Shown in pieces: positions 2,561 through 23,787 of a stretch of DNA of 29,168 nt. A program made the translations under genes and the position numbers. The notes beneath the pieces are model-generated. The model worked only from the letters and a program-made list of their open reading frames with translations, searched no databases and was not told the origin of the DNA. Source of the DNA: a virus; IMG/VR virus record IMGVR_UViG_3300030385_000985, positions 1 through 29,168 of that record; one strand, written 5' to 3'. Positions within the stretch are counted from its first letter, which is position 1. Each line of letters starts with the position of its first letter.

Positions 2561-3094
2561 ATGGAATGGCGTCCAATCCACGGTTTCGAAGGATATTACG
2601 AGATCTCCGACGAGGGCTCAGTGCGTGGTCTCACGCGCACCCTATCCGACGGGCGCCTGCATCGAGGTGCCCCCCTGGCGGTCAAGACTAGCAAGTCCGG
2701 GCACAAGAGCGTCCGGCTTTGCAAGGCAGGAGCGCATCATTGGAAAGGTGTTCACTGCCTTGTCCTAGAGGCTTTCGTCGGCCCCTGTCCCGACGGGATG
2801 GAAGGCGCCCACAACAACGGTGACGCAACAGACAACAGGTTGGCGAACCTTCGCTGGGACACTCGGAAGGGAAACCACGCCGATAAGCGCCTGCACGGGA
2901 CGATGGCCGAAGGGGCGCGCAACGGCAATTCGAAGCTGACCCAATCCGACGTGGACCAGATTTTCGGCTTCCGCCAAGAGGGCGAGAACCTGTCTCGCAT
3001 CGCGGCCAGGTTCGGCGTCACGGCGGCCAACATTTCCAGCATCCTATCCGGCAAGACTTGGAAATCGGGAGGGCGTCCCAATGCAGATATTTGA
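2561..3094 (+). CDS. NUMOD4/HNH homing endonuclease
   Basis: 177 residues. Residues 3-24 are a NUMOD4 DNA-binding module (WRPIHGFEGYYEISDEG). Residues about 60-110 are an HNH_3 nuclease domain with VHCLVLEAF, H-NNGD and DNRLANLRWDT. Residues 123-167 (LTQSDVDQIF ... ISSILSGKTW) look like a resolvase-type helix-turn-helix. This order is typical of free-standing homing endonucleases, which cut a related genome lacking the gene and spread by recombination. It sits between erf and the exonuclease gene and overlaps the latter by 14 bases, so it looks inserted into a recombination operon without breaking it. An ATG follows the erf stop by 2 bases. Confidence 0.85.
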   Translation: MEWRPIHGFEGYYEISDEGSVRGLTRTLSDGRLHRGAPLAVKTSKSGHKSVRLCKAGAHHWKGVHCLVLEAFVGPCPDGMEGAHNNGDATDNRLANLRWDTRKGNHADKRLHGTMAEGARNGNSKLTQSDVDQIFGFRQEGENLSRIAARFGVTAANISSILSGKTWKSGGRPNADI

Positions 3095-4194: not shown

Positions 4195-4477
4195 CCAGCA
4201 GAAGGTCAATGTCCACGAGCTGGCCGCGCTGCCATATGGCCACGCCGAGATCGAACTGAAGAAGGCCGGCATGTGGTGCGAGCGCCTTGGCGGCGAAGGC
4301 GAGATGAAGAGCTATCGCGTCCGCGTCACCGGTAGCGCTCGGGTGGTCCAGTACGTCACCGTCGAGGCTCGCTCGGAAGAGAAGGCCGAGGACGCAGCGA
4401 TCGAGGTCGCCGACAAGGATGGTGACTGGGAGATCACCGGCTACGACATCGCAGAGGACGCGGAGGTAATGCCCTAA
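4187..4477 (+). CDS. hypothetical protein
   Basis: 96 residues from the ATG at 4187. This start was preferred because GGAG at 4173-4176 lies at a workable distance; an in-frame upstream ATG (MKEMRQMADQQ) would overlap the previous gene more. Residues 40-75 (YRVRVTGSARVVQYVTVEAR then EEKAEDAAIEVADKDGDWEI) form a strand-helix pattern like the small DpnD/PcfM-type or similar early phage domains with alternating strands and a helix; this is a weak resemblance. Ends in a TAATG overlap with the HNH gene. Confidence 0.6.
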   Translation: MADQQKVNVHELAALPYGHAEIELKKAGMWCERLGGEGEMKSYRVRVTGSARVVQYVTVEARSEEKAEDAAIEVADKDGDWEITGYDIAEDAEVMP

Positions 4478-4842
4478 TGGCTAAGCGCGCGTCCCTATCC
4501 CGCGTCAAGCGCCTCGCGATCTTCGAAGCACACGGCGGCATCTGCCATCTGTGCGAGCGCAAGATCCAAGCCGGCGAAGCCTGGGAGGTCAGCCACGACC
4601 GCCCGCTGGAATTGCTCGGTGCCGACGACGACGAGAACCGCAAGCCGGCGCACAAGTCCTGCCATGCGGTTCAAACGCGAGAGCATGACATCCCGAGGAT
4701 TGCCAAGGCGAAGCGGCAGAAGATGGCGGCCCTCGGCATCCGCAAACCGTCCACCTTTCCCGGTGGCCGCAACAGCCGTTTCAAGCGCACAATGTCCGGC
4801 AAGGTCGTGGACCGCCAGACAGGAATGGAGGTCGGACGATGA
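4477..4842 (+). CDS. HNH endonuclease
   Basis: 121 residues. A compact treble-clef HNH domain: CHLC (C23, C26), WEVSHDRPLELLGADDDENR (H40, D41, N54) and AHKSCH (H59, C62, H63). The arrangement is that of stand-alone phage HNH proteins, which act as nickases or in DNA processing; it lacks the NUMOD module of the first HNH gene and so is probably a resident early function rather than a mobile gene. The C-terminus (NSRFKRTMSGKVVDRQTG) is basic. Overlaps the next gene by ATGA. Confidence 0.75.
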   Translation: MAKRASLSRVKRLAIFEAHGGICHLCERKIQAGEAWEVSHDRPLELLGADDDENRKPAHKSCHAVQTREHDIPRIAKAKRQKMAALGIRKPSTFPGGRNSRFKRTMSGKVVDRQTGMEVGR

Positions 4843-5177
4843 GCTCGCCGCGCGCTTATACCCCCGAGACCTTGGCGGTGCGCTGGCAGTGCAGCCCCCG
4901 CCATATCCGCAACATGTGCCGATCCGGCGAATTGCCGTCGTTCCGCGTGGGGGGCAAGCTGCTCCGCATCCGGTTCAACGATGTGGAGGACTTCGAATGC
5001 CAGACTGGCGCATCACCCGATACCGAGGCAAGTTCGCCCTCACATTCGACGAACTCCAACCTGACGGAACTGCGAAGCGCAGAAGGTTCGGCCTCGAAAC
5101 CGACGATCGAGCGGAAGCAGAGCGCCGAGCGCCGTCAGCGTTTGCGGCAGTCACTCGCCCTGGCGGGACAACGGTAG
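4839..5177 (+). CDS. helix-turn-helix protein, possible excisionase
   Basis: 112 residues. Residues 8-52 match the small winged helix-turn-helix of excisionase/MerR-like proteins: YTPETLAVRWQCSPRHIRNMCRSG, then ELPSFRVGGKLLRIRFNDVE, ending DFE. Its position immediately upstream of the integrase fits a recombination directionality factor (Xis), but regulation of the operon is equally possible. From residue 54 onward the sequence is low-complexity Ser/Glu/Arg and is encoded inside the integrase gene, a 181-base overlap in another frame; the functional part is probably the first 55 residues. ATGA overlap with the HNH gene before it. Confidence 0.65.
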   Translation: MSSPRAYTPETLAVRWQCSPRHIRNMCRSGELPSFRVGGKLLRIRFNDVEDFECQTGASPDTEASSPSHSTNSNLTELRSAEGSASKPTIERKQSAERRQRLRQSLALAGQR

Positions 5178-5992
5178 CCGAGCTCTGGGACGGATACACC
5201 CGCGACCGCGCGGGCCGCGCCGTGCTGGGAACCATGAAGCACACATGGAAGGCGCTGGCGCCGCGGTTCGGAAAGACCGAAGGCGAGCTCGTATCCATCG
5301 CGGATTGCCGAGCTCACATCGAGGCGCGGCGAAAGGCCGGGCGTTCGGACGGCACGATCCACACCGAGCTCGGTCACCTCCGCATGGTTCTGAAATGGGC
5401 CGAGGCTCATAAGCTGATCGGTCGAGCTCCAGCGATTGAGCGCCCGGCCAAGCCGGAACCGAAAGACGCCTACCTGACGCGCGGCGAAGTCTCCGCGATG
5501 ATCGCGGCGGCGAACAAGCCGCACATCGTTCTGGCCATCCGCCTTTTGATCGGCACAGGAGCTCGCGTCACCGCCGCGCTAGAGCTCACATGGGACCGTG
5601 TCGACTTCGATCGAGGCATGATCCACCTGCGCAATCCATTCGACAAGACGCGGCGCAAGGGGCGCTCGTCAGTGCCAATGAACGGGAAGCTTCGCGCTGC
5701 ACTCACATCGGCCAAGGCAGGCGCACAGACGCCGTTCGTGATCGAGTGGGCCGGACGCCCGGTCAAATCCATCAAGCGCGGCCTGCGGGCTGCCGCGACC
5801 GCCGTAGGGCGCCCCGACGTGTCGGCGCACATGCTTCGGCATTCATCCGCCGTGTGGCTGGCAGAGGACGGGCATTCGATGGACGAGATCGCGCAGTTTC
5901 TTGGTCATGGCGACGGCAGGATGACCGCGAAGGTGTATGCTCGGTATTCGCCCGATCACCTCCGCTCGCTCGCCTCGTCGTTGGAATTTTGA
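4997..5992 (+). CDS. int: tyrosine-type site-specific integrase
   Basis: 331 residues from the ATG at 4997, chosen because GGAGG sits 7 bases upstream; the open frame extends further upstream only through the HNH and HTH genes. Residues 1-45 resemble an arm-binding domain, 57-150 a SAM-like core-binding domain, and 160-331 the catalytic domain. Catalytic residues are visible: R190 (GTGAR), K221, HMLRH with H278 and R281, H304 (LGHGD) and the probable nucleophile Y314 (KVYARYSPD). It should recombine the phage attP just downstream with a host tRNA gene. The stop codon is followed after 5 bases by the first arm-type repeat. Confidence 0.93.
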   Translation: MPDWRITRYRGKFALTFDELQPDGTAKRRRFGLETDDRAEAERRAPSAFAAVTRPGGTTVAELWDGYTRDRAGRAVLGTMKHTWKALAPRFGKTEGELVSIADCRAHIEARRKAGRSDGTIHTELGHLRMVLKWAEAHKLIGRAPAIERPAKPEPKDAYLTRGEVSAMIAAANKPHIVLAIRLLIGTGARVTAALELTWDRVDFDRGMIHLRNPFDKTRRKGRSSVPMNGKLRAALTSAKAGAQTPFVIEWAGRPVKSIKRGLRAAATAVGRPDVSAHMLRHSSAVWLAEDGHSMDEIAQFLGHGDGRMTAKVYARYSPDHLRSLASSLEF

Positions 5993-5997
5993 TGTTT

Positions 5998-6025
5998 GCG
6001 AAGTGCCCTCCGGTTCAATGAACCT
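5998..6025 (+). repeat. left arm-type repeat of attP
   Basis: Direct repeat copy 1. It begins GCGAAGTGCCCT and contains the palindrome GGTTCA-A-TGAACC. The second copy lies at 6205-6234 in the same orientation on the other side of the tRNA-like core. Paired repeats around a core next to int are the usual layout of integrase arm-binding sites; binding is inferred. Confidence 0.6.
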
Positions 6026-6042
6026 CGAAAGGAGAACAAACA

Positions 6043-6423
6043 GTGCAAATCATGCCGGAAAAGACCAATAGCGAAGCGCCCTTTCCCCAGCAGAGCAGGG
6101 GTTTCCATGGGGGGAAAGACGTTGACATCGAAGGGGTCACAGGTTCAATCCCTGTCACGCCCACCATCCGAACCCCTGCAAATCAAGGCTTAGGCCAATC
6201 CGGTGCGAAGTGCCCTACAGGTTCACTTGAACCTGACGCACTGATCGAGCGGTGGCGTTCGGCCTTCAAGCGCGCCAATGGCTGGGAAGCACCGAGGGTG
6301 TCCTATGCCAATGGCTGGTTCGTGATCGACAGCATTTTCCAGCCCCGGAGACGCCGCGCTAAGCTTGAGCGCATGGCGGAGCGCTTAGAGAGCCGCCAGC
6401 CGGCCCCGAGCAGCGGATTATGA
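6043..6423 (+). CDS. hypothetical protein with reading frame through attP
   Basis: 126 residues from a GTG at 6043, with GGAG 8 bases upstream (6031-6034), a good ribosome binding site. An ATG at 6052 is an alternative. The N-terminal 60 residues are encoded by the attP region itself, and the tRNA T-arm gives an IPVTP-like stretch typical of read-through of tRNA sequence. Only the C-terminal half from about residue 66 (ALIERWRSAFKRANGWEAP, then SYANGWFVIDS) looks like a folded, conserved phage protein. If translation really starts at 6043, integration would split the gene. The real gene could instead be only the C-terminal half with a start I cannot identify. Confidence 0.45.
   Translation: MQIMPEKTNSEAPFPQQSRGFHGGKDVDIEGVTGSIPVTPTIRTPANQGLGQSGAKCPTGSLEPDALIERWRSAFKRANGWEAPRVSYANGWFVIDSIFQPRRRRAKLERMAERLESRQPAPSSGL
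6120..6166 (+). other. attP: attP core: 3' half of a tRNA (probably tRNA-Val GAC)
   Basis: From 6122 the sequence folds as the 3' half of a tRNA: anticodon loop TTGACAT (6122-6128, anticodon GAC), 3' anticodon strand CGAAG, variable loop GGGTC, T-arm ACAGG-TTCAATC-CCTGT (6139-6155), acceptor 3' strand CACGCCC, discriminator A and encoded CCA (6164-6166). The bases upstream complete only two anticodon-stem pairs (6120-6121), and no D-arm or 5' acceptor (expected GGGCGTG) is present, so it is not a tRNA gene. Tyrosine integrases often cross over in the anticodon loop, and the retained half restores the host tRNA. An 8-base inverted repeat (CTTTCCCC/GGGGAAAG, 6081-6118) adjoins the core. Confidence 0.8.
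6205..6234 (+). repeat. right arm-type repeat of attP
   Basis: Direct repeat copy 2: GCGAAGTGCCCTACA followed by the palindrome AGGTTCA-CT-TGAACCT. It shares its first 12 bases exactly with the copy at 5998 and differs by small insertions afterwards. A near match to the IHF consensus (AATCAAGGCTTA, spacer one base short) lies between the core and this repeat at about 6181. Confidence 0.6.
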
Positions 6424-6424
6424 T

Positions 6425-6456
6425 ACCGCACCGCGGCCCGAGTTCCCTGCGGTTTT
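6425..6456 (+). terminator. possible intrinsic terminator after the attP-spanning gene
   Basis: ACCGCA (6425-6430) pairs with TGCGGT (6448-6453), followed by a short T run and TTCC. The 17-base loop contains CCGCGG. It begins 1 base after a stop codon on the + strand. The stem is only 6 bp, so the call is tentative. Confidence 0.4.
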
Positions 6457-6532
6457 CCTCCCAAACGAAGGGCAAAGGTGGTAAGATGTTTCAATGGCAT
6501 AGCAGCCAAATGCCAACTGCGGGACGCGACCG

Positions 6533-6766
6533 ATGAGCATCATTCAGGTTCTTCGCTGGGTGAAGAAGGCCCAGCGATGGCACGGCGAAGCCAACTCCCG
6601 GTTCGGCCACCATTATGAGGACGCTATCCACGAGGGGTTTATCCGCGTCGAGCCATCCGAGGTGTTCATGAACGCCGGGTATCGCGATGTGCGGCAGCGC
6701 ATCTCACTGACGCCTGCTGGGATGTCTGCCGTCAACGGTGGCACCCCGCAGTCTGGGAATGGATAG
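6533..6766 (+). CDS. hypothetical protein, possible winged-helix
   Basis: 77 residues. The C-terminal ISLTPAGMSAV resembles the wing-and-helix end of small phage or MarR-like winged-helix domains, and the N-terminus is basic and helical (VLRWVKKAQRWHG), but nothing is decisive. It is separated from the attP region by a probable terminator and an approximately 100-base non-coding gap. The stop overlaps the region of the next gene's start. Confidence 0.5.
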   Translation: MSIIQVLRWVKKAQRWHGEANSRFGHHYEDAIHEGFIRVEPSEVFMNAGYRDVRQRISLTPAGMSAVNGGTPQSGNG

Positions 6767-6776
6767 AGAGGACGAG

Positions 6777-6959
6777 ATGAGCGAGAAGGACAAGGCCGAC
6801 CGCGATATGCTGCTGCACGGCGTCGGCGTTATGATGATGACGGCGGATGGGCCGAAGCACATCCCGCTTGACGAGTTCTATGCGAAGCCGGACCCCGACG
6901 AAGCGCGGGAATGGCAGCGCAGGTTCGAAGCGACTGCAACCGACACCACGAACGAGTGA
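6777..6959 (+). CDS. small acidic hypothetical protein
   Basis: 60 residues from the ATG at 6777, which has GAGAGGA about 5 bases upstream; an in-frame ATG at 6759 overlaps the previous gene. The protein is acidic and soluble, with DGPKHIPLDEFYAKPD near the middle. No family recognised. Confidence 0.5.
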   Translation: MSEKDKADRDMLLHGVGVMMMTADGPKHIPLDEFYAKPDPDEAREWQRRFEATATDTTNE

Positions 6960-6960
6960 A

Positions 6961-6992
6961 GCCCGCCGCGCTCAATCAAGAGCACGACGGGC
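6961..6992 (-). terminator. hairpin, possible minus-strand terminator
   Basis: GCCCGCCGCGCTC (6961-6973) and GAGCACGACGGGC (6980-6992) form a 13-bp stem around a 6-base loop. Two positions are C-A mismatches if read as + strand RNA but G-U wobbles if read as - strand RNA, which favours function on the leftward transcript. The downstream tract on that strand is only moderately T-rich. It lies about 400 bases beyond the last leftward gene, so it could stop late transcription before it runs into the integration region. Confidence 0.35.
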
Positions 6993-6997
6993 TGGGT
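6980..6997 (+). repeat. 18-bp direct repeat, copy 1
   Basis: GAGCACGACGGGCTGGGT occurs here and again exactly at 7352-7369. Each copy sits just after the end of a + strand gene. This copy forms one arm of the hairpin at 6961-6992. Confidence 0.6.
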
Positions 6998-7014
6998 GGG
7001 GATAGGAGATGAGG

Positions 7015-7353
7015 ATGCTGAAGGGTCTTTGGGCGCTAATGACTGGCCTGCGGGGGCACGCAGAAACCGAACGGAAGCGAGAGGCCGAATATGCTGCCTT
7101 TGAGCAGGCCCGGCGAGTAGCCGAAGCCACCCTTGAAGCTGAGGGTTTCCGGGTTTGGCTCGCATCTGTCGGGGATTGCCAGCGCCGCGATCTGGTTGAG
7201 TTCGCGACGATCCACAGCGAGCACAGGTGGACGATCGATCCGCGCGATCAAGACCCCCTGTTGAACGCCAATGGTCTCTACTGGCGCCCGGTGGAGTATG
7301 CCGAGTTCGACGAGCTACCGCCGAAGCGGGCCATCAGCCATTCGCTGCATTGA
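7015..7353 (+). CDS. hypothetical protein
   Basis: 112 residues from the ATG at 7015. An ATG also exists at 7009, but the AGGAG at 7004-7008 would then abut the start; with 7015 the spacing is a normal 6 bases. The N-terminus has a short hydrophobic stretch (LKGLWALMTGL) followed by a long charged helix (ETERKREAEYAAFEQARRVAEA) and a mixed C-terminal half with HRWTIDPRDQDPLL. Function unknown. It is the last rightward gene and converges on the late operon. Confidence 0.5.
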   Translation: MLKGLWALMTGLRGHAETERKREAEYAAFEQARRVAEATLEAEGFRVWLASVGDCQRRDLVEFATIHSEHRWTIDPRDQDPLLNANGLYWRPVEYAEFDELPPKRAISHSLH

Positions 7354-7369
7354 GCACGACGGGCTGGGT
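7352..7369 (+). repeat. 18-bp direct repeat, copy 2
   Basis: Exact second copy of the 18-mer at 6980-6997. It overlaps the stop codon of the preceding gene. AGCACGAC within it is also complementary to GTCGTGCT at 7393-7400, in the end of the convergent leftward gene, with a long 32-base loop. Confidence 0.6.
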
Positions 7370-7389
7370 ATATCGGCAGTGAGTGACGG

Positions 7390-7755
7390 CTAGTCGTGCT
7401 TCTGGTCTCGGCGCTTCTCCAGTAGCTCGCGAAGGCCGCGGATTTCCTCCACCAGCTCGCGCTTGATCACGTTGAACTGGTCGAACGTCACGAAGTCCCG
7501 CGCGGTCGATACCTGATAGTTCTGGAACTTCTCCTTGTGCGTCTCGATCTTGAGATCCACAGCGGCGATCCTCGTCTCGGCAGCGTTGATGCGCTCGTTC
7601 AGTTCCTTGTCGAGATGATCGATCTTCTTGGAATTCGCGAGGGACCGGGAGCGCAGGTCAAACCACGACCCCAGCACCGTCGCCATCATGGTCAGGAAGG
7701 CCATGACCTGTGGCGCTGTAAAAGACAGATCATCCATTCCGGCGATGGCACTCAT
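7390..7755 (-). CDS. membrane-anchored coiled-coil protein, possible lysis accessory
   Basis: 121 residues. A single hydrophobic segment lies near the N-terminus (about residues 14-31, FTAPQVMAFLTMMATVLGSW), followed by a long heptad-rich helix from about 38 to 116 (KIDHLDKELNERINAAETRI, then LRELLEKRRD). The shape, a short membrane anchor with a coiled coil, recalls inner-membrane spanins and XhlA/Rz-like lysis partners, and the gene closes the lysis cassette. No lipobox or outer partner is visible, so a spanin role is not established. The start is uncertain: no good ribosome binding site precedes 7755, and Met7 is an alternative. It is the last gene of the leftward late operon. Confidence 0.6.
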   Translation of the reverse strand: MSAIAGMDDLSFTAPQVMAFLTMMATVLGSWFDLRSRSLANSKKIDHLDKELNERINAAETRIAAVDLKIETHKEKFQNYQVSTARDFVTFDQFNVIKRELVEEIRGLRELLEKRRDQKHD

Positions 7756-7876
7756 GGGGCGGGTCTCGCATTATCATGCCATTAACCACCGGCCCGCATT
7801 GTGTACGGAGCCGGCGCCCTCTCTTCAGGGTTTCGGTCAGCGGGTCGGAGGTGCGCCTACACCGCCGGCCCGCGCT

Positions 7877-7963
7877 TCAGATGGGGGCCGAAGCCAGAGC
7901 GATTATGGATATCGCGATGAGCCCAACGACGATGCCCCAGAACATCCATGACAAGACGCTCAA
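7877..7963 (-). CDS. very small membrane peptide overlapping endolysin end
   Basis: 28 residues if started at TTG (7963-7961), which forms a 4-base TTGA overlap with the endolysin stop, analogous to ATGA coupling. An ATG at 7945 would give a 22-residue version. Almost the whole peptide is one hydrophobic helix (WMFWGIVVGLIAISIIALAS). A single-helix membrane peptide directly after an endolysin could be a pinholin-like or regulatory lysis factor. Short hydrophobic frames can arise by chance; the coupling overlap is the main support. Confidence 0.35.
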   Translation of the reverse strand: MSVLSWMFWGIVVGLIAISIIALASAPI

Positions 7964-8904
7964 GGCTTGGCCTCTGGCGGTGCCGCGTTTGCCGGCGCAA
8001 GGAACGTGCCGATCAGACCGCCGACGAGCGTCGCCAGCATGTCGATCTGCGTTCCGCTAATTGCGCCATCGGGGATGAACTCGTTCGCGACAGCCCATGT
8101 GACCAGTGCGCCGATTAGCGAGCCGAACAACTTCGAGAAGCGTGCCGGATCAAAGCGCGACTTTGCGACAGGGACCGTAGGCTCTTGTCCTGCCCCGCCC
8201 GTGGTGTCTGGGGGCAACTGAGGTTGGGTTGTAGGAACTGGCACACTTGCGCCCGTATCGGCTTCCACGACCTCGCCAAAGCCCGCCACGCGCAATGCCG
8301 TGAAGAACTGGCGGTGCGCCTTCGCGATCTTCGCGTCGGTGCCGTCCTGGCCGTTAACGATGCGGCGCGGGTTCTGAGAGACCGGAGCATCCAGCGCAGC
8401 GGGGAAATCGAAGTCGGACAGCTTCTTGCCGGTAAAGCGACCTTCGGACATGCCCACCACCGCGATGTCTGCGCCGATGGCAGGGTCGAGCGCAAACGAC
8501 GGGTTGCCTACCAGATCCACGCCGAGGCGGTCGCCCATGCGACGATAGTTGTCCTCATGCGTCAACTGCACAGGCCCACGACCGAACCAGCCTTCGCGCC
8601 AGTACGGCTGCCGCACCCACGAAAGCTGACCAGCAGCGAAAGCGCGATCAAGGCGCGCGATCACCGTTGCATCGGACGGGTTCTTGTCCTTGTGCGAGGC
8701 GAAGACCGTCTCCTTGATCGGGAGCATATAACCCCCGGTCTCGTGCCAGACCTGCGCCAGGATATTAGCGACGTGGTGGGGATCGCTGACCCCGTTGCGC
8801 CGGCAGGATGCGAGGATGGCTTCGCACCCGTCGACGGCGCTCTGGGGCAGCCGCCCGTTGAACACGGACGCGCGAATGCTGGCGAAGAATTTGCCGAGGT
8901 CCAT
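7960..8904 (-). CDS. GH19-type endolysin with C-terminal holin-like membrane domain
   Basis: 314 residues. Residues 1-210 form a GH19 (chitinase-like) lysozyme domain: ANILAQVWHETGGYM with the probable catalytic E55, and WFGRGPVQLTHEDNYRRMG at about 106-124. It would cleave peptidoglycan glycan strands. Residues 211-248 are a Pro/Thr-rich linker (VPVPTTQPQLPPDTT). The last 65 residues carry two hydrophobic helices (FGSLIGALVTWAVANEF and MLATLVGGLIGTFLAPA) separated by a short polar turn, like a two-helix phage or GTA holin. The two functions are usually on separate genes, so this reads as an endolysin-holin fusion or a membrane-tethered endolysin. Translation is probably coupled to the 18-codon frame upstream (TGATG overlap). 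Confidence 0.85.
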   Translation of the reverse strand: MDLGKFFASIRASVFNGRLPQSAVDGCEAILASCRRNGVSDPHHVANILAQVWHETGGYMLPIKETVFASHKDKNPSDATVIARLDRAFAAGQLSWVRQPYWREGWFGRGPVQLTHEDNYRRMGDRLGVDLVGNPSFALDPAIGADIAVVGMSEGRFTGKKLSDFDFPAALDAPVSQNPRRIVNGQDGTDAKIAKAHRQFFTALRVAGFGEVVEADTGASVPVPTTQPQLPPDTTGGAGQEPTVPVAKSRFDPARFSKLFGSLIGALVTWAVANEFIPDGAISGTQIDMLATLVGGLIGTFLAPANAAPPEAKP

Positions 8905-8960
8905 CAGCCCCTCCCCTCATGCAGGCGCACGAAAGCGCGCCCCTGTGCGGACGTGTCCAT
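8904..8960 (-). CDS. 18-codon leader frame upstream of endolysin
   Basis: ATG at 8960 with an excellent ribosome binding site (AGGAGAACC), giving MDTSAQGRAFVRLHEGRG, then a stop that overlaps the endolysin start as TGATG. No other good ribosome binding site for the endolysin is seen except GAGGGGAGGGG within this frame. It probably serves translational coupling or tuning of endolysin expression; the peptide itself need not have a function. It starts about 20 bases after an intrinsic terminator. Confidence 0.45.
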   Translation of the reverse strand: MDTSAQGRAFVRLHEGRG

Positions 8961-8981
8961 GGTGGTTCTCCTGTGGTGGCA

Positions 8982-9008
8982 AAGAAAAAGGCCCGCCGAA
9001 GCGAGCCC
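8982..9008 (-). terminator. intrinsic terminator before lysis cassette
   Basis: On the - strand, GGCTCGC-TTCG-GCGGGCC (7-bp stem with a TTCG tetraloop, + positions 8990-9007) followed by TTTTTCTTT. This is a textbook rho-independent terminator. It separates the repeat-rich secreted protein gene from the endolysin leader frame. Confidence 0.85.
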
Positions 9009-9037
9009 TTGGTTCCGGTTAGAAGTGACTGTGTGCC

Positions 9038-10168
9038 CTAGCGGCTTTCCAGCGCCTCGATACGAGCCTCAAGCTGCGCGATTGTCGCCAGTGCTTGTGC
9101 TAAAGCATCTGAAGACGTGACCTTGCCGTGCGCGTCGATCTGCATGACGCCAGGAGCGCCAACTTGCGAAGGAGCGATAAAAAAGCTGTCACTTTCCCCG
9201 ACGTTGACATCCTTGCCCAATCCCGTGGCATTCTTCACGCTGGGTTCTGCCTGCGCGTTGGTGCCGATGAGGACGATGTCTTTGGTATTCGCTGATAGGC
9301 TACCGGCACGATCACCGAGGAAGACGGAACGCACGGCCTTCTTCGCCGACATGCCGGCCTTGTTTCCAATCATCACCGATAGCGCTGCACCAGCCGCATA
9401 GCCACCGGCGAACCGACCCAGCATAATGGATCGTGTAGCATCATTTGCTTCGTATGCAGCGAATGTTCCAGCGGCTACGAGATGACTGGATCGGTGGGCA
9501 TACTCACCTGCTGCGTAGCCGAAAACATTTGCGTATTGGAGGCCCGCCACGAAACGCCCAGCGGCGTACCCGATCAACGTCGAGTAATTCACGCTCTTGG
9601 CCGCGTACCCCGCCGACCCGCCGATGTTTATGGCGTGGTCGCCATCTGCGAGGTTACGTCCCGCACTCGCCCCGATGTTTACGCTTGACGGTGAATAGAC
9701 AGCGTACTCTCCAGCTGCTGAACCAACATTAGTAGAGTACGGGGACCGCCAAACCTTGCGGCCGGTCCACGTTCCTAACGCGACAGTGTTGTCGGATTGA
9801 TAAATTTCCCGGCCGGCAAAACTCCCACTGATCACTGCTGTGGAGGCGTCGTCCCCAAATACTTGGTGTGCCTCCACGCAGGGAGGCATCGCCTTTATCC
9901 CAACACTCTGTTGTTCCAGCCGCTTCCTCGCCACCGTGATCTCACGTGTTGGGAAATTCACGAGTGCCTCGCGCAACTCAATGCTGTTGGACACCAACTC
10001 CTTCTGATAATCGGCATTGATACATTCTTGTAACGCCTTGGCATCGGACATTTGCTTTGTGAGCGTGCTGGCCGACACAGCCAACTGTTTAGCGCTCATC
10101 GCCTCGGCCGCCCCTGACGCCATGATTGCAGCGAGGAAAACCAATGCTTTTGCGACTTCGTACTGCAT
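9038..10168 (-). CDS. secreted beta-roll repeat protein (adhesin or fibre-like)
   Basis: 376 residues. Residues 1-23 look like a Sec signal peptide (hydrophobic ALVFLAAIMASG, then AAEA). Residues 24-105 are mostly helical and hold the only two cysteines (C49, C97), suiting a disulfide outside the cytoplasm. Residues about 111-325 contain roughly twelve repeats of 17 residues with the pattern hydrophobic-x-G-x-x-AG (for example VNIGASAG, INIGGSAG, TLIGYAAG), as in YadA-type heads and in S74-type tail fibre repeats that fold into a left-handed beta-roll. The end (LAQALATIAQLEARIEALE) is a coiled coil, suggesting a trimer; no S74 autoprotease domain is seen. The signal peptide is unusual for a virion fibre: it may be a lysogenic-conversion surface protein. 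Confidence 0.65.
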   Translation of the reverse strand: MQYEVAKALVFLAAIMASGAAEAMSAKQLAVSASTLTKQMSDAKALQECINADYQKELVSNSIELREALVNFPTREITVARKRLEQQSVGIKAMPPCVEAHQVFGDDASTAVISGSFAGREIYQSDNTVALGTWTGRKVWRSPYSTNVGSAAGEYAVYSPSSVNIGASAGRNLADGDHAINIGGSAGYAAKSVNYSTLIGYAAGRFVAGLQYANVFGYAAGEYAHRSSHLVAAGTFAAYEANDATRSIMLGRFAGGYAAGAALSVMIGNKAGMSAKKAVRSVFLGDRAGSLSANTKDIVLIGTNAQAEPSVKNATGLGKDVNVGESDSFFIAPSQVGAPGVMQIDAHGKVTSSDALAQALATIAQLEARIEALESR

Positions 10169-10237
10169 CTAGCTTCCACCCCACCCTGTTAATGCCACTT
10201 GGGCTTACACATCGGGCGGCGGTGCATCAATCGCTCG

Positions 10238-12298
10238 TCAGATATCTCCGCCGATGACCGCGAAACCGAGCGTAAATGCCACGTCCAGTGCAGCGCCTGC
10301 CGAGTCGTAATTATAAATGCTAAACCCCGATGTCGTCAGCCCATCCGCCGTTGGCCGGTTTGCCTTTCCGTTACCCCCGAACACGACAATGTAGTCGGCG
10401 CTTGGCAAGGCTTCCGTAAAGCTGACCGTGTAAAGACCTGTGCCAACGCGAGTTACGGCAGAAACGAGATGGCCCTTGGTTCCGACCAAGCCCGCGTTGT
10501 TCATCTGCGCCCAGCGCGCGACCGCTCCAACCTGACCCAGATTTTTATCATCGCTGTCGCGTTTGAGGGTCAGGCGCCGGAAGGCGGCAGCCACGTTCAA
10601 GTCCCACTCAAAGTGCCGTCCCGAGCGGGATGACGCCGGCAGTGCATAGTTATTGGCTAGGCCGAAGCGAACGCGCGTCGTGTCTCCATAAGGCTGATTT
10701 GTGCCAACAGGGTCGGCAGCGCCGACACCAGCGTATCCGCCCAAGCCGACGTTGATGTGCTGAAAGTCAGCCGATTGCAGGCCAATACCAATCGCACCAC
10801 TCACCTGTCCCCATGAAATCGGAGCGTTGGCTGTCTGCACTTCACTGATCGACGTAACAACATCAGTTGTGGTGAAGACAATCGTCTCGCCAACCTCGCC
10901 GATATTCTCGACCAACTGAACCGTCTCGCCAACCTCAAACACGCCATGCTGCCAAAACAGGTCGAGGGAACTATTCTGACCCTCTTTCAGCCAGCCAATC
11001 GCACCAGACGTCGTGCCGCTGATCACAGCCATCCCGCTGAACGGCAAATCACCTTGCTGGCCGAGCCCGAGGGCGGGCGAGAAGCTATTGGCGTTGATCC
11101 CGAAAAGACGAACAACTCGGTTCCAAGTTTGGATCGTGAAGTTGTTGAAGCGCGTCGGCGCTCCGTACATCTTATAAAGCATGTAAACAGCATCCCAACC
11201 AGAATGCTGCCAGAGATTGGACATGCGGGCCGGATTGTTAGCGGTCGGGACGCGAACCTGCCCCGCGCCAAGGAATGCGTCATGGAGAGCAAGATGGTTG
11301 TCTAGGCCGGTGGTCCGCGATGGATGGTAACTGCCCCGGATGCCCTCTTCATTCACAATGCCTGCGTCGTTGGCGTTCGCAATGAACAGCGTCCATTCGT
11401 TCGTAACGTAGGACGTGAGGTTGTTCGGGGTCACGTCATCGCCGCGCCAGTACCACATATTGAAGCGCTGCACGCCTGTGATGTTTTTCCAATTGAACTG
11501 CACGCCGCGGTTGTTGACGATCGTGCCGCCGACATTCGCGCCCCGAGCGCCGATCACATCGATTGCGTCCTGCACGATAGCCGACTGGTCCGCAACGGAC
11601 CCTGTGTCAGCACCCAGCATCGCCGTCCAGATGACTTCCTCTGCGATTTCCCACCACGCACCGTCAGCCGATTGGAACTTGCCCGGATGCGAGGGCTCGA
11701 AGGCCACACGATTGTAGAGGGCGCCACCGCCGTCGCCAGCAGCCGAATATCCAAGGACTGTTATCCCACCGGTCACCGGATCAATCGTCGCACCAGATGC
11801 AAGTGCGATGGTATCGTAAGTGTTCCCCGAGCCTGCCGGCCCGGTCTGCCCACGCTGGCCCGCAGGCGTAAAAGTCAGAAGAACCGTGTCGCCGTCCTCA
11901 AACGGACTGGTCTCGCTTGCAGCGACATTCGACACAGTGATGTTGCGATACCCGGCCGGGCTTGCCAGCGCCGTAACAGCGAAGGTCAGCCATTTTGTCG
12001 GATCGCCTACCGCATAGATACGGATGTGCCCCTTCGTCGCGCTCGTGCTGTCGTCGAAGGCATCCAGGAGCCCAGAGACATCCGCACCGTTCACATCAAG
12101 AGTATCGGCACGGATCGTCAGGGCCGCGTCCTGCTGTGTGGCTGACAGCCGCAACTTGCCATTACCCGGATCGCCGTCCGTGATGGTTGTCGAGAACACG
12201 TAGCGGATTGCCAGTGCGCCCAAATCCACGTCGAGATTGACGGTGCGAGACGCGAAGGAGGGAACCGTCAGCGTGTTGGCTGGGCGGATTTCAAGCAT
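10238..12298 (-). CDS. tail fibre / receptor-binding protein
   Basis: 686 residues. The N-terminal 140 residues form a strand-rich virion-attachment domain (MLEIRPANTLTVPSFASRTV). A short collagen-like Gly-X-Y piece follows (AGQRGQTGPAGSG, about 146-158). Then comes a transition segment with GYSAAGDGGGALYNR, typical of pectate-lyase-like spikes, and a long region rich in Asn, Gly and aromatic residues ending in a compact beta domain (YIVVFGGNGKANRP). It probably recognises the host surface. GGAG lies 8 bases before the ATG, and a terminator immediately precedes that. By eye, this gene and the following one are less GC-rich than the structural genes, as expected for an exchangeable host-range module. 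Confidence 0.8.
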   Translation of the reverse strand: MLEIRPANTLTVPSFASRTVNLDVDLGALAIRYVFSTTITDGDPGNGKLRLSATQQDAALTIRADTLDVNGADVSGLLDAFDDSTSATKGHIRIYAVGDPTKWLTFAVTALASPAGYRNITVSNVAASETSPFEDGDTVLLTFTPAGQRGQTGPAGSGNTYDTIALASGATIDPVTGGITVLGYSAAGDGGGALYNRVAFEPSHPGKFQSADGAWWEIAEEVIWTAMLGADTGSVADQSAIVQDAIDVIGARGANVGGTIVNNRGVQFNWKNITGVQRFNMWYWRGDDVTPNNLTSYVTNEWTLFIANANDAGIVNEEGIRGSYHPSRTTGLDNHLALHDAFLGAGQVRVPTANNPARMSNLWQHSGWDAVYMLYKMYGAPTRFNNFTIQTWNRVVRLFGINANSFSPALGLGQQGDLPFSGMAVISGTTSGAIGWLKEGQNSSLDLFWQHGVFEVGETVQLVENIGEVGETIVFTTTDVVTSISEVQTANAPISWGQVSGAIGIGLQSADFQHINVGLGGYAGVGAADPVGTNQPYGDTTRVRFGLANNYALPASSRSGRHFEWDLNVAAAFRRLTLKRDSDDKNLGQVGAVARWAQMNNAGLVGTKGHLVSAVTRVGTGLYTVSFTEALPSADYIVVFGGNGKANRPTADGLTTSGFSIYNYDSAGAALDVAFTLGFAVIGGDI

Positions 12299-12314
12299 GG
12301 TGTGCTCCGGGCAT

Positions 12315-12337
12315 GAAAAAGCCCGATCGAGGCGGGC
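12315..12337 (-). terminator. intrinsic terminator before the tail fibre gene
   Basis: On the - strand GCCCG-CCTCGAT-CGGGC (+ 12321-12337) followed by TTTTTC. The stem is only 5 bp but GC-only and the T run is good. It lies between the small virion protein gene and the tail fibre start, with the ribosome binding site of the fibre about 10 bases beyond the T run. Confidence 0.65.
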
Positions 12338-12363
12338 GGTCAGTCAGCGAGTTGTGGGTAGGC

Positions 12364-12765
12364 TCAGGCGGTGGAGTCGTTCGCGGGGAAGACGATGATG
12401 TCGCCGGTCCAGATGATCTTGGAGACTTCGCCGAGCAGTTCGTCGTCCCACGTGATGCGGAAGAACTGTTGCCACGTGCCGACAGGCAGGGAGGCTTCGA
12501 CGCTGGCTTGATCGAGGAAAAACGAGACCAAACCCAGAGAGGCGTTTTCCTTTCGGATGCCTGCGGAGGCTTCCGAAGTCAGTAGCTTCAGCAGAACCGA
12601 ATGATCCAGCGTCGGGCGCGCGAACAGTTCCAGGGTGTAGCTGGTCACGTCGAACGGCAGACCGGCGTTGTCCACGAGCTGCGGCAGGGCGTCGTACCAG
12701 TCCTCGCCATGCCAGACGCGGATGGTCGCGGAGTGCGGACGCTCCGTCACGATAGTGTCGGCCAT
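12364..12765 (-). CDS. small virion-associated protein (possible fibre or tail-tip accessory)
   Basis: 133 residues from the ATG at 12765 (MADTIVTERP), chosen because GAGAGG precedes it and the longer frame runs into the hub gene. It is strand-rich, with VWHGEDWYDALPQLVDNAG near the N-terminus, and resembles the small beta-sandwich (BppU/distal-tail-like) N-terminal domains that occur near siphovirus fibres. Its place between the tail hub and the fibre suits an adaptor. No family named with confidence. Confidence 0.6.
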   Translation of the reverse strand: MADTIVTERPHSATIRVWHGEDWYDALPQLVDNAGLPFDVTSYTLELFARPTLDHSVLLKLLTSEASAGIRKENASLGLVSFFLDQASVEASLPVGTWQQFFRITWDDELLGEVSKIIWTGDIIVFPANDSTA

Positions 12766-12773
12766 GATGCCTC

Positions 12774-14639
12774 TCAGACGATGATGATTTCGTTGTCGCC
12801 AGACCACTGGCCTATCGCCTGGGGACCGGCGATGACGCGGATGCGAATCTGATAAGCCCCGACCGCCACGGTGCCGCTCTCGGCGCTGTCGCGCGTTTCG
12901 GCGACAGTCATTGCCGTGTACTCGCTACCCGCACCGGCGCGATACTCGACCTCGTAGGATCGGTTGAGCGCTTGGCTCGGTGTCCAGTCTGCGCGGATGG
13001 CCGGGCCGGCAATCTGCGACAGGGTGATCTCTGGCGGCTCAAGACTAAGATCGGGCGACGTGTCAGGCGGGACAGATGTCGATGTGCCCTCTTCCGCCGT
13101 CGTCCAGTTGTAGGCAGCGGCGTTCGCAGAGCGAAGTGACAGGCGCACGCCGCTGAAGTCTGGCAGCAGCTCCGGGCCACCCTCGACCCAATACGGCCCG
13201 TTGATGTTCAGCTCGGGCCAGTTCAGCGTGATGACGCGCTCGCCGATGACGTTGAGGCCGACCAGATTGGTGACGACCTCGCCGACCCAATCGCTGTTCT
13301 CTCTCGCCATGCGGATCTTCGCGAGGCGGCGCGCCTGGCTATGCGAAGGGATCTGGACGAGATCCGCCGGGACCGTGACGAGCTGCCCGGTCGCGGCAAT
13401 GTCATCCACGTCCTGCCAAGGCGTGCCCTCGTTCTCCACATAGTCGAGCTGCGGGTCCAGATACTGGATCGACAGTTCGTTGAACCGCGACATCGCATCC
13501 GGTGGCGCGAAGTTCGTTTCGAGGACATGCCCCTGATCCGCGTCGATCGTGACAGTCGGCGCCACCCACTTGCCGCCGCGGATCGCCTGCTTGCCATCCT
13601 GTCGCGGGTAAAGCTGTGCGTCGCAGGATTCCAGAAGACGCGCCAGAATGTCCTTGCGGGGATCGGTCATCGCAACCGAAGTTGCGATCCGATAGCGACG
13701 CTCAGTCCCGCCGGCTGCCAGAGGGACAGCTTCATCGCATGTGTTCGCCAAGGTGATAAAGCTCGGCAGGTGCATCTTCGCGATGGGCCGGTCGTAGCCG
13801 TCCTCATGCGTGAGATAGTCGAGAATGACGAGCGCGGGATTGTCGCTCCATTCCCACGTCGCCTTGTTGTTTTGCCTGTGAGCACCGCTGCCGCCGGCTA
13901 CCGTGGAATCCTTGCGCGGGTCGTAGAGCTTGGCCCCTCGCAAGAGAGCCGACACCTGCGGCTCACCGCTCGGATAATGCGACTGGAACTCGTCGTCAGG
14001 CCCGGTCCTGAAATAGGCGACGATATAGGCGGTGCCCCGGAGCCGGTGGTTTGCGGTCCATTCGGAGAACGTCCCTGTCAGGAAGCCGTCTGCCCCTTGA
14101 TCATCCGTGCCCACATGAAGTGCAATACGCGCCAAGGGGTTGGAGCCGTTGGCATATGGCGCGGTCTGAACCCAACCGGCACCATCGATCGCCATAGCGT
14201 TGTCGTTCAGGTAGATCTGCTCGAACCCGTCGATCTCGCGAGACGACAACATGACGGCCTTGTAAAGAGCCCCGCCCCGGCTCTCGTAGAAAGCCAGCGA
14301 TCCACTCGTCTTGACCCGGCCATAATGCCAGATCCGAGGTGGGATCGACTGCCGGGCCTCCACCTGACCGTCGCTTGGCTTTGGCTGCGAAGGGCGGTTC
14401 AGCAGCGAGGCAATGTAGGAAGCACCGAGGCCGAGCGCGATCGTGCCAACGGTCGAGGCAATCGAGCCAAGCACGCCCACGCCGATGATGGCATTGCCGA
14501 CCGCGATCGGGGCACCGGCAGCGACCAGTGCCGATGCGATCGGGAAGAATACCGGCGCCGCCTTCGCCGGGATAGCGACAAAGGTCAGCGACGCCAGGAC
14601 CGTCGAGACGGTCAGCGCAGCGCGAACGGATCGCAGCAT
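12774..14639 (-). CDS. tail tip / central hub protein (J-like)
   Basis: 621 residues. The start is a hydrophobic, signal-like segment (MLRSVRAALTVSTVLASLTF ... AKAAP) followed by a Gly/Ala-rich hydrophobic stretch to about residue 80 (VGTIALGLGASYIASLL), often seen at the start of lambda J-type tip proteins. The middle (SIPPRIWHYGRVKTSG, later YDRPIAKMHLP and ARRLAKIRMAREN) matches the tip-attachment/phage-tail_3 pattern of siphovirus hubs. The C-terminal 100 residues look like a fibronectin type III domain (ITLSQIAGPAIRADWTPSQ ... YEVEYRAG). It should form the distal hub that penetrates the envelope. It directly follows the NlpC-like gene, the GTA order of gp14-gp15. Confidence 0.8.
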   Translation of the reverse strand: MLRSVRAALTVSTVLASLTFVAIPAKAAPVFFPIASALVAAGAPIAVGNAIIGVGVLGSIASTVGTIALGLGASYIASLLNRPSQPKPSDGQVEARQSIPPRIWHYGRVKTSGSLAFYESRGGALYKAVMLSSREIDGFEQIYLNDNAMAIDGAGWVQTAPYANGSNPLARIALHVGTDDQGADGFLTGTFSEWTANHRLRGTAYIVAYFRTGPDDEFQSHYPSGEPQVSALLRGAKLYDPRKDSTVAGGSGAHRQNNKATWEWSDNPALVILDYLTHEDGYDRPIAKMHLPSFITLANTCDEAVPLAAGGTERRYRIATSVAMTDPRKDILARLLESCDAQLYPRQDGKQAIRGGKWVAPTVTIDADQGHVLETNFAPPDAMSRFNELSIQYLDPQLDYVENEGTPWQDVDDIAATGQLVTVPADLVQIPSHSQARRLAKIRMARENSDWVGEVVTNLVGLNVIGERVITLNWPELNINGPYWVEGGPELLPDFSGVRLSLRSANAAAYNWTTAEEGTSTSVPPDTSPDLSLEPPEITLSQIAGPAIRADWTPSQALNRSYEVEYRAGAGSEYTAMTVAETRDSAESGTVAVGAYQIRIRVIAGPQAIGQWSGDNEIIIV

Positions 14640-15029
14640 TCAAACTCTCCAAGCTGCGAGGATCGGCACCCGCCGAAAGCGAAGACCGCCCGGCCCGATG
14701 CATGCGGTGAAGTCGCCGGTCACGATGGCGCCTAGCTCGCCCTCTGGGGCGTCCACGAGCGCGATATCACCGCGGCTGGCGGCATTGGTGCGCCGGATGC
14801 CCAACGGCGCCACAGCGGCTCCTATGAGCGCTTCCCGCGATCCGTGCTCCGCGATGATCCGATAGGCCGCGATCTGCGTGGCGTAGCGGCTGCGAAACTG
14901 CGCCGCCGGATTGACGCCATGGCGAACCGCGACCCACTCGCCGAGCCATGACAGGCAGTCGGCACCGTCACCCGCCCATGAAAAAGGCCGCCCAGCGGCG
15001 GCCTTCAGGAACGTCGATAGATCGTCCAT
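14640..15029 (-). CDS. NlpC/P60-like (DUF6950-type) tail protein
   Basis: 129 residues from the ATG at 15029 (MDDLSTFLKAA), located just after the stop of the preceding gene; the longer open frame overlaps that gene. GRPFSWAGDGADCLSWLGEW has the Asp-Cys pair of NlpC/P60-related tail peptidases, and GDIALVD ... ILAAWRV at the end is typical of the DUF6950 branch. That branch often lacks the His of the catalytic dyad, and no obvious partner His follows here, so it may be structural rather than active. A strong terminator-like hairpin is encoded within codons 9-18. Position before the hub gene matches GTA gp14. Confidence 0.7.
   Translation of the reverse strand: MDDLSTFLKAAAGRPFSWAGDGADCLSWLGEWVAVRHGVNPAAQFRSRYATQIAAYRIIAEHGSREALIGAAVAPLGIRRTNAASRGDIALVDAPEGELGAIVTGDFTACIGPGGLRFRRVPILAAWRV
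14981..15005 (-). terminator. intragenic terminator-like hairpin in NlpC-like gene
   Basis: On the - strand AAGGCCGCC-GCTG-GGCGGCCTT (9-bp perfect stem, + 14984-15005) followed directly by TTTC, so five T in a row in all. It meets every sequence criterion of an intrinsic terminator but lies inside a coding frame, near the N-terminus. It could be a coincidence of the K-A-A-A-G-R-P-F coding. Confidence 0.5.
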
Positions 15030-18400: not shown

Positions 18401-19270
18401 TTAGCGGGCTCCTTTGATTAGGTTATCAGACGCCCACAGCGGCTGAAGGTTTGTGTAGTGGCAGGCTTCGGATAACTGCGCCCGATCGGTAAGGTCGAAC
18501 GATGCCAGAGGCGTTTTGTGGTCAAGATGCCATTCCCGGCAACCACCCCAACCCCGTCCCCAGTTCTCCCAAGTCATGCCTTCGAGGAACTGGCTTTCGA
18601 TGTACGCATGAAGCCCTTCAGTCGATATTCCGACCAACTGTGTGACACTGCCGTTTTTCGCTTGACGCTTCAGGGCCTTGTGAACGCGGGAGCGGACAGA
18701 GGCCATTATGCGATACCGAACGTCGGAAGCGCGCCTATCGGCTGCCCGCTGCCTATAGTATGGGCGCATCGCCTCTTTATTCTGTCTGAGCCATTCGCGG
18801 GTCGCCGCGTTGCACTTCTCCCGAAACTCAGGATCAGATTGGCGCTTCTGCCGCTGCCATTCCCGAGACTTCTTGTTCAGTTTCTCGCGAAGGTCGGGAT
18901 CAGTTAGGCGCTGCGCCTTGATCCTTTCGTTCCGGGCAGTCTCTAAAGCTCTCGCCTTGTCTGGGTTTTCAGCTTTCCATCGCTTCGCATCTTCGCGGGC
19001 TTTGGTCTTATCGCGTGCTGCATACCGCCGCTTTTCGAAGTCGCTGCCGGCGCCACGATTACGTTCGTGATTGCGCTTTTCCCAGACAGCAACCTTGTCA
19101 GGATTGGCCGCGCGATAGGCTCGCGTCTGAGCCCTCTGGCACTCACGGCAGAACCGCCGCTGGAGGACTTTTCCCCTGCATCGGTAGTTGTCGAAGTGCG
19201 CGAAAGTTGCGGGCTTCTCAGCGCCGCATTTCGTGCATGTTCGGATTGTGGTATTGGAATCGTCAGCCAT
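18401..19270 (-). CDS. HNH endonuclease with zinc ribbon and basic coiled region
   Basis: 289 residues. Residues 10-50 hold a zinc knuckle pair (CTKCG ... CRECQ). Residues 50-190 are very basic and helical with imperfect repeats (NPDKVAVWEKRN, NPDKARALETAR). The C-terminal 90 residues form an HNH domain: FLEGMTWENWG, WHLDHKTPLASF, YTNLQPLWASDN. This architecture belongs to free-standing phage HNH homing endonucleases. The gene interrupts the tail chaperone-tape measure neighbourhood, which is usually contiguous, so it looks like a mobile insertion. It shares the GMTWEN and DHxTPLASF motifs with the HNH gene near the capsid. Confidence 0.85.
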   Translation of the reverse strand: MADDSNTTIRTCTKCGAEKPATFAHFDNYRCRGKVLQRRFCRECQRAQTRAYRAANPDKVAVWEKRNHERNRGAGSDFEKRRYAARDKTKAREDAKRWKAENPDKARALETARNERIKAQRLTDPDLREKLNKKSREWQRQKRQSDPEFREKCNAATREWLRQNKEAMRPYYRQRAADRRASDVRYRIMASVRSRVHKALKRQAKNGSVTQLVGISTEGLHAYIESQFLEGMTWENWGRGWGGCREWHLDHKTPLASFDLTDRAQLSEACHYTNLQPLWASDNLIKGAR

Positions 19271-23129: not shown

Positions 23130-23756
23130 CTAGAGAAGGTGGGTTCGCGTGCCGCTCTTGCGCTGATTGTGGCGAGCCCAAAGGGGACGAAGGTTCGAAA
23201 GAGACCACGCGGCTTTGAAGTCGGCGTCGTCAGGTCCAGAGAACGTGAAGGAGGCGAGCGGCGTGATGTGGTCGACGTGCCAGAGCCTTCGGTTTTCCCA
23301 TGTCATACCCGTTGAGAACTGACGCTCCAAATGAGCCATCAGGTCATCGAGGCTGTAATCCACCAGCCGCTGCCAACCGCGCCCGCCTTTGCCGCTCTGG
23401 AGCGAGGCGTTGATCGCACGAGACATCCGCTCTGAAATGTTGCGGCGGCGGTCACGTTTCCGGGCTTCCCTATGCCAGCGGTTGAACCGCCCGGAAGCAC
23501 AAGGAGCGCAGAATTTCATAGCCCCCGATTTGAGTACGAAGGCCGCACCGCAGTGCTGACAAGGGACAGAAGATCCGACTTCCCGTGCGCCCTTGGCCCG
23601 TATCTTAGCCAAAGCCGCAGCGCGACCCGCGGCCTTCTCGCGTTCATGGCGACATGCGTCGCAATAGATTTTCTTCGAAGACCGGCTGAGGAAATCAGAC
23701 CCGCAGGTCCGGCATTCCCGTGGCCGCATAACTGCTTTTCGAACGATCTTTGTCAT
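23130..23756 (-). CDS. HNH endonuclease next to the capsid gene
   Basis: 208 residues from the ATG at 23756 (MTKIVRKAV); an in-frame ATG at 23769 lacks a ribosome binding site. Two zinc knuckles (CRTCG ... YCDACRHE and CQHCG ... CAPCA) precede a basic region (REARKRDRRRNISERMSR) and an HNH domain (FSTGMTWEN, WHVDHITPLASF, LSNLRPLWARHNQ). It is related to the HNH gene near the tape measure gene. Its place between the capsid and a small head gene is typical for a mobile homing endonuclease. An 11-bp perfect inverted repeat covers its start codon. Confidence 0.85.
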   Translation of the reverse strand: MTKIVRKAVMRPRECRTCGSDFLSRSSKKIYCDACRHEREKAAGRAAALAKIRAKGAREVGSSVPCQHCGAAFVLKSGAMKFCAPCASGRFNRWHREARKRDRRRNISERMSRAINASLQSGKGGRGWQRLVDYSLDDLMAHLERQFSTGMTWENRRLWHVDHITPLASFTFSGPDDADFKAAWSLSNLRPLWARHNQRKSGTRTHLL

Positions 23757-23787
23757 ATCGGCGCACCCCATTTGGATGCGCCGATAT
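23755..23787 (-). promoter_or_regulatory. hairpin covering the HNH start codon
   Basis: On the - strand ATATCGGCGCA (23787-23777), an 11-base loop containing GGGG, and TGCGCCGATAT (23765-23755) form a perfect 11-bp stem. The HNH start codon ATG (23756-23754) begins inside the 3' arm, and the candidate ribosome binding site GGGG lies in the loop. A stem at this place should reduce translation from long late transcripts, as hairpins do for several T4 endonuclease genes. Confidence 0.65.

Follow-up and report, generated by a model that had tools for sequence, protein, structure and literature searches.

A probable intact attP at tRNA-Val(GAC) in an uncultured lambda-like phage of alphaproteobacteria

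The site that follows the integrase gene in an IMG/VR virus record of 29,168 bases, taken whole and referred to here as the window, is very probably (about 95%) an unbroken attP belonging to a temperate, lambda-like siphovirus that has hosts of the Aurantimonadaceae/Rhizobiaceae type and inserts at tRNA-Val(GAC). Sequence comparison also supports reading the DNA of the window as an unintegrated junction, as carried by a free, circular or tandem phage copy. The earlier note on this DNA had described an integrase followed by the 3′ half of a tRNA, running from a GAC anticodon loop to the encoded CCA without its 5′ half, and this arrangement is found exactly, with the integrase ending at 5992 and the tRNA half at 6122-6166 (Table 1). 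Phage genes stand on both sides as it had stated, with Erf, exonuclease and excisionase to the left and GH19 endolysin, tail, head, TerL and TerS to the right. A complete tRNA or host genes near 6120, which it had named as evidence against its reading, are absent from the 29,168-base window, in which ARAGORN finds no complete tRNA and gene family searches find no host gene. Because terS is cut off at the right end, the record is probably a fragment of a genome, and the lack of a suffix-prefix overlap or end repeat in the window itself is therefore compatible with a circular source. The window also contains four HNH/endonuclease VII-type genes (2561-3094, 4477-4842, 18401-19270 and 23130-23771), two of which lie within the late operon.

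Table 1. Features of the putative attP and its surroundings in the window.
Feature	Position	Strand	Evidence or remark
Genes left of attP: Lar-like, Erf, RecE-like exonuclease, excisionase, integrase		+	
Excisionase-like gene, possible Xis	4839..5177	+	HTH_17; PHROG phrog_66/1840 excisionase, E~1e-5; Pfam HTH_17, 1.5e-9
Tyrosine integrase, 331 aa	4997..5992	+	PHROG phrog_1, E=1.4e-49; Pfam PF00589, E=2.1e-19
Complete attP (P arm, core, P′ arm)	~5998..6234	+	Arm motifs on both sides; matches to A. glaciei attR and attL
Distal P-arm site (putative): GCGAAGTGCCCT + palindrome CGGTTCAATGAACCT (6011-6025)	5998..6025	+	Kept in relatives
ORF with GTG start	6043..6423	+	AGGAG shortly upstream; stays open across core and P′ arm and continues into the coding stretch 6241-6423
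Proximal P-arm site (putative): GCGAAGCGCCCT	6071..6082	+	Kept in relatives
attP/attB identity block, 50 bp	6120..6169	+	Alignment to A. glaciei attR stops at 6169, that to attL starts at 6120
3′ half of tRNA-Val(GAC), anticodon loop to encoded CCA	6122..6166	+	Exact 45-base match; no 5′ half
P′-arm site (putative): GCGAAGTGCCCT + palindrome AGGTTCACTTGAACCT (6219-6234)	6205..6234	+	Matching arm in A. glaciei attL, none after attR
Genes right of attP: GH19 endolysin, tail, head, TerL, cut TerS		-	

The attP is about 240 bp long and adjoins the integrase gene, whose end lies about 130 bp before the core. The 45-base tRNA-Val(GAC) half is the sole match in the window at up to three mismatches and is not found in any of 100 shuffles. 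The arm motif GCGAAGTGCCCT, searched over the whole window at up to one mismatch, occurs at 5998, 6071 and 6205 only, all inside attP, whereas chance would give a mean of 0.25 copies and three or more copies arose in one of 100 shuffles. Two of its sites lie to the left of the core and one to the right, and the two outer copies are adjoined by the palindromes CGGTTCAATGAACCT and AGGTTCACTTGAACCT. This layout, with two sites in the P arm, then the core, then a single site in the P′ arm, is that expected of an attP. The arm sites do not figure in the earlier note.

The target is seen occupied in Aureimonas glaciei, which harbors a prophage whose integrase is the closest to that of the window (91% identical) and whose att core is present twice in the genome. 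At attL, a complete tRNA-Val(GAC), identical to the window core over all 45 bases, is followed by the P′ arm of the window (window 6120-6235, 85%). At attR, the integrase and P arm of the window (4854-6169, 81%) lead into a bare tRNA 3′ half and then into host DNA, and the attL and attR alignments overlap only in 6120-6169. The prophage is split over two assembly contigs, its ends being linked via the att sites and the host flanks, and these flanks, when joined, match one unbroken stretch in another Aureimonas (G006), an empty attB with 87% identity over 346 bp and the whole tRNA gene inside. By this comparison the integration site, the target gene and the direction of integration are established, in agreement with the tRNA-Val(GAC) that the earlier note had proposed, and the related prophage at a matching tRNA for which it had suggested searching is thus at hand. 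Behind the A. glaciei attL, the genes J, T2, T1, neck, Ad1, protease and TerL are ordered as in the window, and int stands before attR. As the integrated relative carries its late genes behind attL and int before attR, what lies left and right of attP in the window follows the plan of one phage, and the junction of the window is therefore best read as unintegrated, which bears out the earlier proposal of a free, extrachromosomal or tandem source, since attR and attL each match one half of attP. TerL was not found in int-related viral records, so the evidence for collinearity comes from A. glaciei and from the endolysins in two viral relatives (L003 and L009). Matches to a TerL query are phages with related packaging genes, and none of the fetched loci has this core, which argues for separate histories of int/attP and the late genes.

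In the proposed mechanism, the integrase is expected to bind predicted core sites around the anticodon stem-loop together with the three putative arm sites listed in Table 1, and the arm repeats probably serve as binding sites for Int/Xis. The integrase would catalyze recombination between attP and the 3′ half of the host's tRNA-Val(GAC) gene, with a crossover that probably falls in the anticodon loop, at the left end of the identity block. Integration would join the host 5′ half to the phage core and so yield a whole tRNA at attL, beside the lysis/tail end, while the displaced tRNA 3′ half would come to lie at attR, beside int.

An intact attP is what free phage DNA must show. Among the int-bearing loci compared, about a dozen related viral contigs have an intact attP with a P′ arm after the core, so the site is usual rather than odd; the earlier view that the window is not an ordinary prophage thus holds as regards the unintegrated junction but not as regards any unusualness. 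In sequence alone, free, circular and tandem DNA look alike, and a lysogen with tandem prophages, or with two different prophages at one tRNA, would be expected to give a junction identical to this attP-like site. Tandem islands at tRNA genes are known, the 3919 islands of Islander including 125 tandems with at least two members (PMC4383910), and one bacterial assembly (L191) has an intact attP-like site. Such an origin is nevertheless improbable here, as the same numbers make tandem arrays a small minority of tRNA islands, the 29 kb hold no host gene and have the gene order of a single lambda-like genome, and many related viral contigs share the intact junction, two of them seemingly circular. 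We infer that the contig derives from a free genome, virion or excised, and not from a tandem array. It is less probable still that the junction is an assembly chimera in which reads from attL and attR were joined through their common tRNA half. The core is indeed a repeat common to attL, attR and attB, and a separate contig, 3300030106_006737 (8,608 bp, 100% identical to window 6356-14943), stops some 115 bp past the right end of attP, but both phage arms flank the core in true attP order and the P-core-P′ structure recurs in at least eight relatives from other samples. That the tRNA 3′ half is an unused fossil, a degraded tRNA unrelated to integration of which only half is present, is hardly credible, as it is precisely this half that serves as att core in relatives, for which attL, attR and empty attB are all seen, and arm sites stand on either side of it.

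Other relatives display further states of the site. Two loci, L002 and L003, share 9030 bp without a difference, ending at the last core base, and diverge beyond it. In a third, L152, a complete tRNA is present, and the 9039 bp that lead from the core into the phage are the same as in L003. Judged by these alignments, L002 is the attR, L003 the attP and L152 the attL of one more distant phage, each on a metagenome contig. Between int and the P arm, L003 (10982-11512) and also L002 carry about 530 bp with an HNH-endonuclease-like ORF, an insert that is missing from the otherwise very similar L004. The two contigs that look circular by their ends, both with an intact attP, are L007, which has a 99-bp end repeat, and L008, which has a 1.3-kb end overlap at 99.5%. 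The latter (IMGVR_UViG_2847680403_000004) is a 43-kb contig, to judge by its name probably from an isolate assembly, and represents an excised or extrachromosomal copy. Among the bacterial-genome loci with int 5′ of the core, a P′ arm after the core is found in L191 only (G642 contig 76), where arms on both sides of the core make up an apparent intact attP or tandem junction. Searches of viral contigs with the start of the window's P arm or the pattern of its P′ arm gave no match to further attPs. In Aureimonas G002, a 3-kb segment between two tRNA-Val core copies (L127 1460-4470) contains glycosyltransferase-like and flippase-like ORFs and a P′-like arm adjoining a whole tRNA, and is perhaps a decayed prophage or small island. 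In G383 contig 20 (L131), a related integrase adjoins an inverted Val-GAC core that lacks the 5′ tRNA half, in contrast to the near-identical relatives L132-L134.

Across the integrase family, the targets comprise tRNA genes for Val-GAC, Val-UAC, Val-CAC, Met-CAU and Pro-CGG. Relatives that integrate elsewhere had been named in the earlier note as contrary evidence; the closest relatives target Val-GAC, in keeping with its reading, but more distant ones use the other tRNA genes. On a tree of 42 related integrases, in which several forks are moderately supported and the change counts are accordingly approximate, the target tRNA changes at least five times and largely tracks integrase clades, and the orientation of attP relative to int changes at least seven times. 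Close relatives in which attP, arms and core together, lies in opposite orientation relative to int include L005/L007, L013/L015, and L012/L018 versus L008/L009.

The ORF that begins in the P arm runs through the attP itself. No in-frame ATG, GTG or TTG occurs between the core and the conserved part of this ORF (6043-6423), so that its only canonical starts lie to the left of the core. After 6241 the GC3 pattern is that of the window genes, and the codon score of this stretch is highest in the frame of the ORF. The ORF has no family similarity in PHROGs or Pfam, and matches to the 6241-6423 domain are limited to the identical contig, a weak one in one genome and a weak one in Loktanella phage pCB2051-A. 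In the A. glaciei prophage at attL (L026 from 1500), a gene with a SLOG domain (PF10686, 4.4e-20), unrelated to the 6241-6423 stretch of the window, stands behind the P′ arm; it likewise has no ATG, GTG or TTG at the expected start and is in the same frame. A tentative reading, which we regard as doubtful, is that this lineage of Aureimonas phages has a small gene spanning attP, starting at GTG 6043 with its ribosome-binding site in the P arm and read through the tRNA half and P′ arm into an exchangeable 3′ domain, so that only excised or virion DNA would carry it whole, integration would split it and it would act only in the unintegrated state. In that same doubtful reading, the exchangeable domain would be an unnamed short one in the window and a YspA/cpYpsA-related SLOG (PF10686) in A. 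glaciei. A protein-level role for the attP leader finds no support: the leader is not conserved as protein, its differences from A. glaciei fall about evenly on the three codon positions (5/8/7), and L003 and L005 have separate starts, the next gene after the P′ arm in both having its own ribosome-binding site and ATG. The P′-arm part of the leader is not coding-like.

Taken together, a single contig gives, for an uncultured phage, the tRNA gene that it targets, the limits of its attP and the likely host group, Aureimonas and related Rhizobiales. An intact attP can be used to recognize unintegrated DNA among virus contigs, and int together with attP 5998-6234 would be a candidate module for integration at tRNA-Val(GAC) in alphaproteobacteria.

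Several known systems can be compared with this site. Tyrosine integrase and tRNA target are shared with the tRNA-dependent lysogeny of Fionnbharth (PMC10865867), a system ruled out here by the long core, which would rebuild the tRNA, and by the absence of a phage tRNA gene from the window. The ORF through attP resembles the repressor gene of mycobacteriophage BPs, which contains attP and provides integration-dependent immunity (PMC4557955), and the integrases of Mx8 and SSV, which extend across attP (cited in PMC4383910), in that integration would split it; it differs from these in that the candidate is small and appears to be neither repressor nor integrase. If true, an attP-spanning gene of this sort would place another kind of gene, besides repressors and integrases, under the control of integration. 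Repeated flips of attP relative to int, as in this integrase family, are known in kind: mycobacteriophages Omega and Gaia are reported to carry inverted attPs (PMC10865867) and share with the present phages an attP in either orientation relative to int, the difference being that here the orientation changes repeatedly within one integrase family. As a whole, the site is of an ordinary, well-known kind, the tRNA-targeting attP of a tyrosine integrase. It is most like subsite A of Islander (PMC4383910) and attP/attB-4 of mycobacteriophage Boilgate (PMC10865867), which are tRNA attP sites with an anticodon-loop crossover, in its core formed by the tRNA 3′ half from the anticodon loop, the 50 bp identical to attB, the arm-type repeats on either side of the core, an attP of about 240 bp beside int and a tRNA rebuilt at attL, whereas it differs from them in its alphaproteobacterial tRNA-Val(GAC) target and in an arm motif of this phage family's own.
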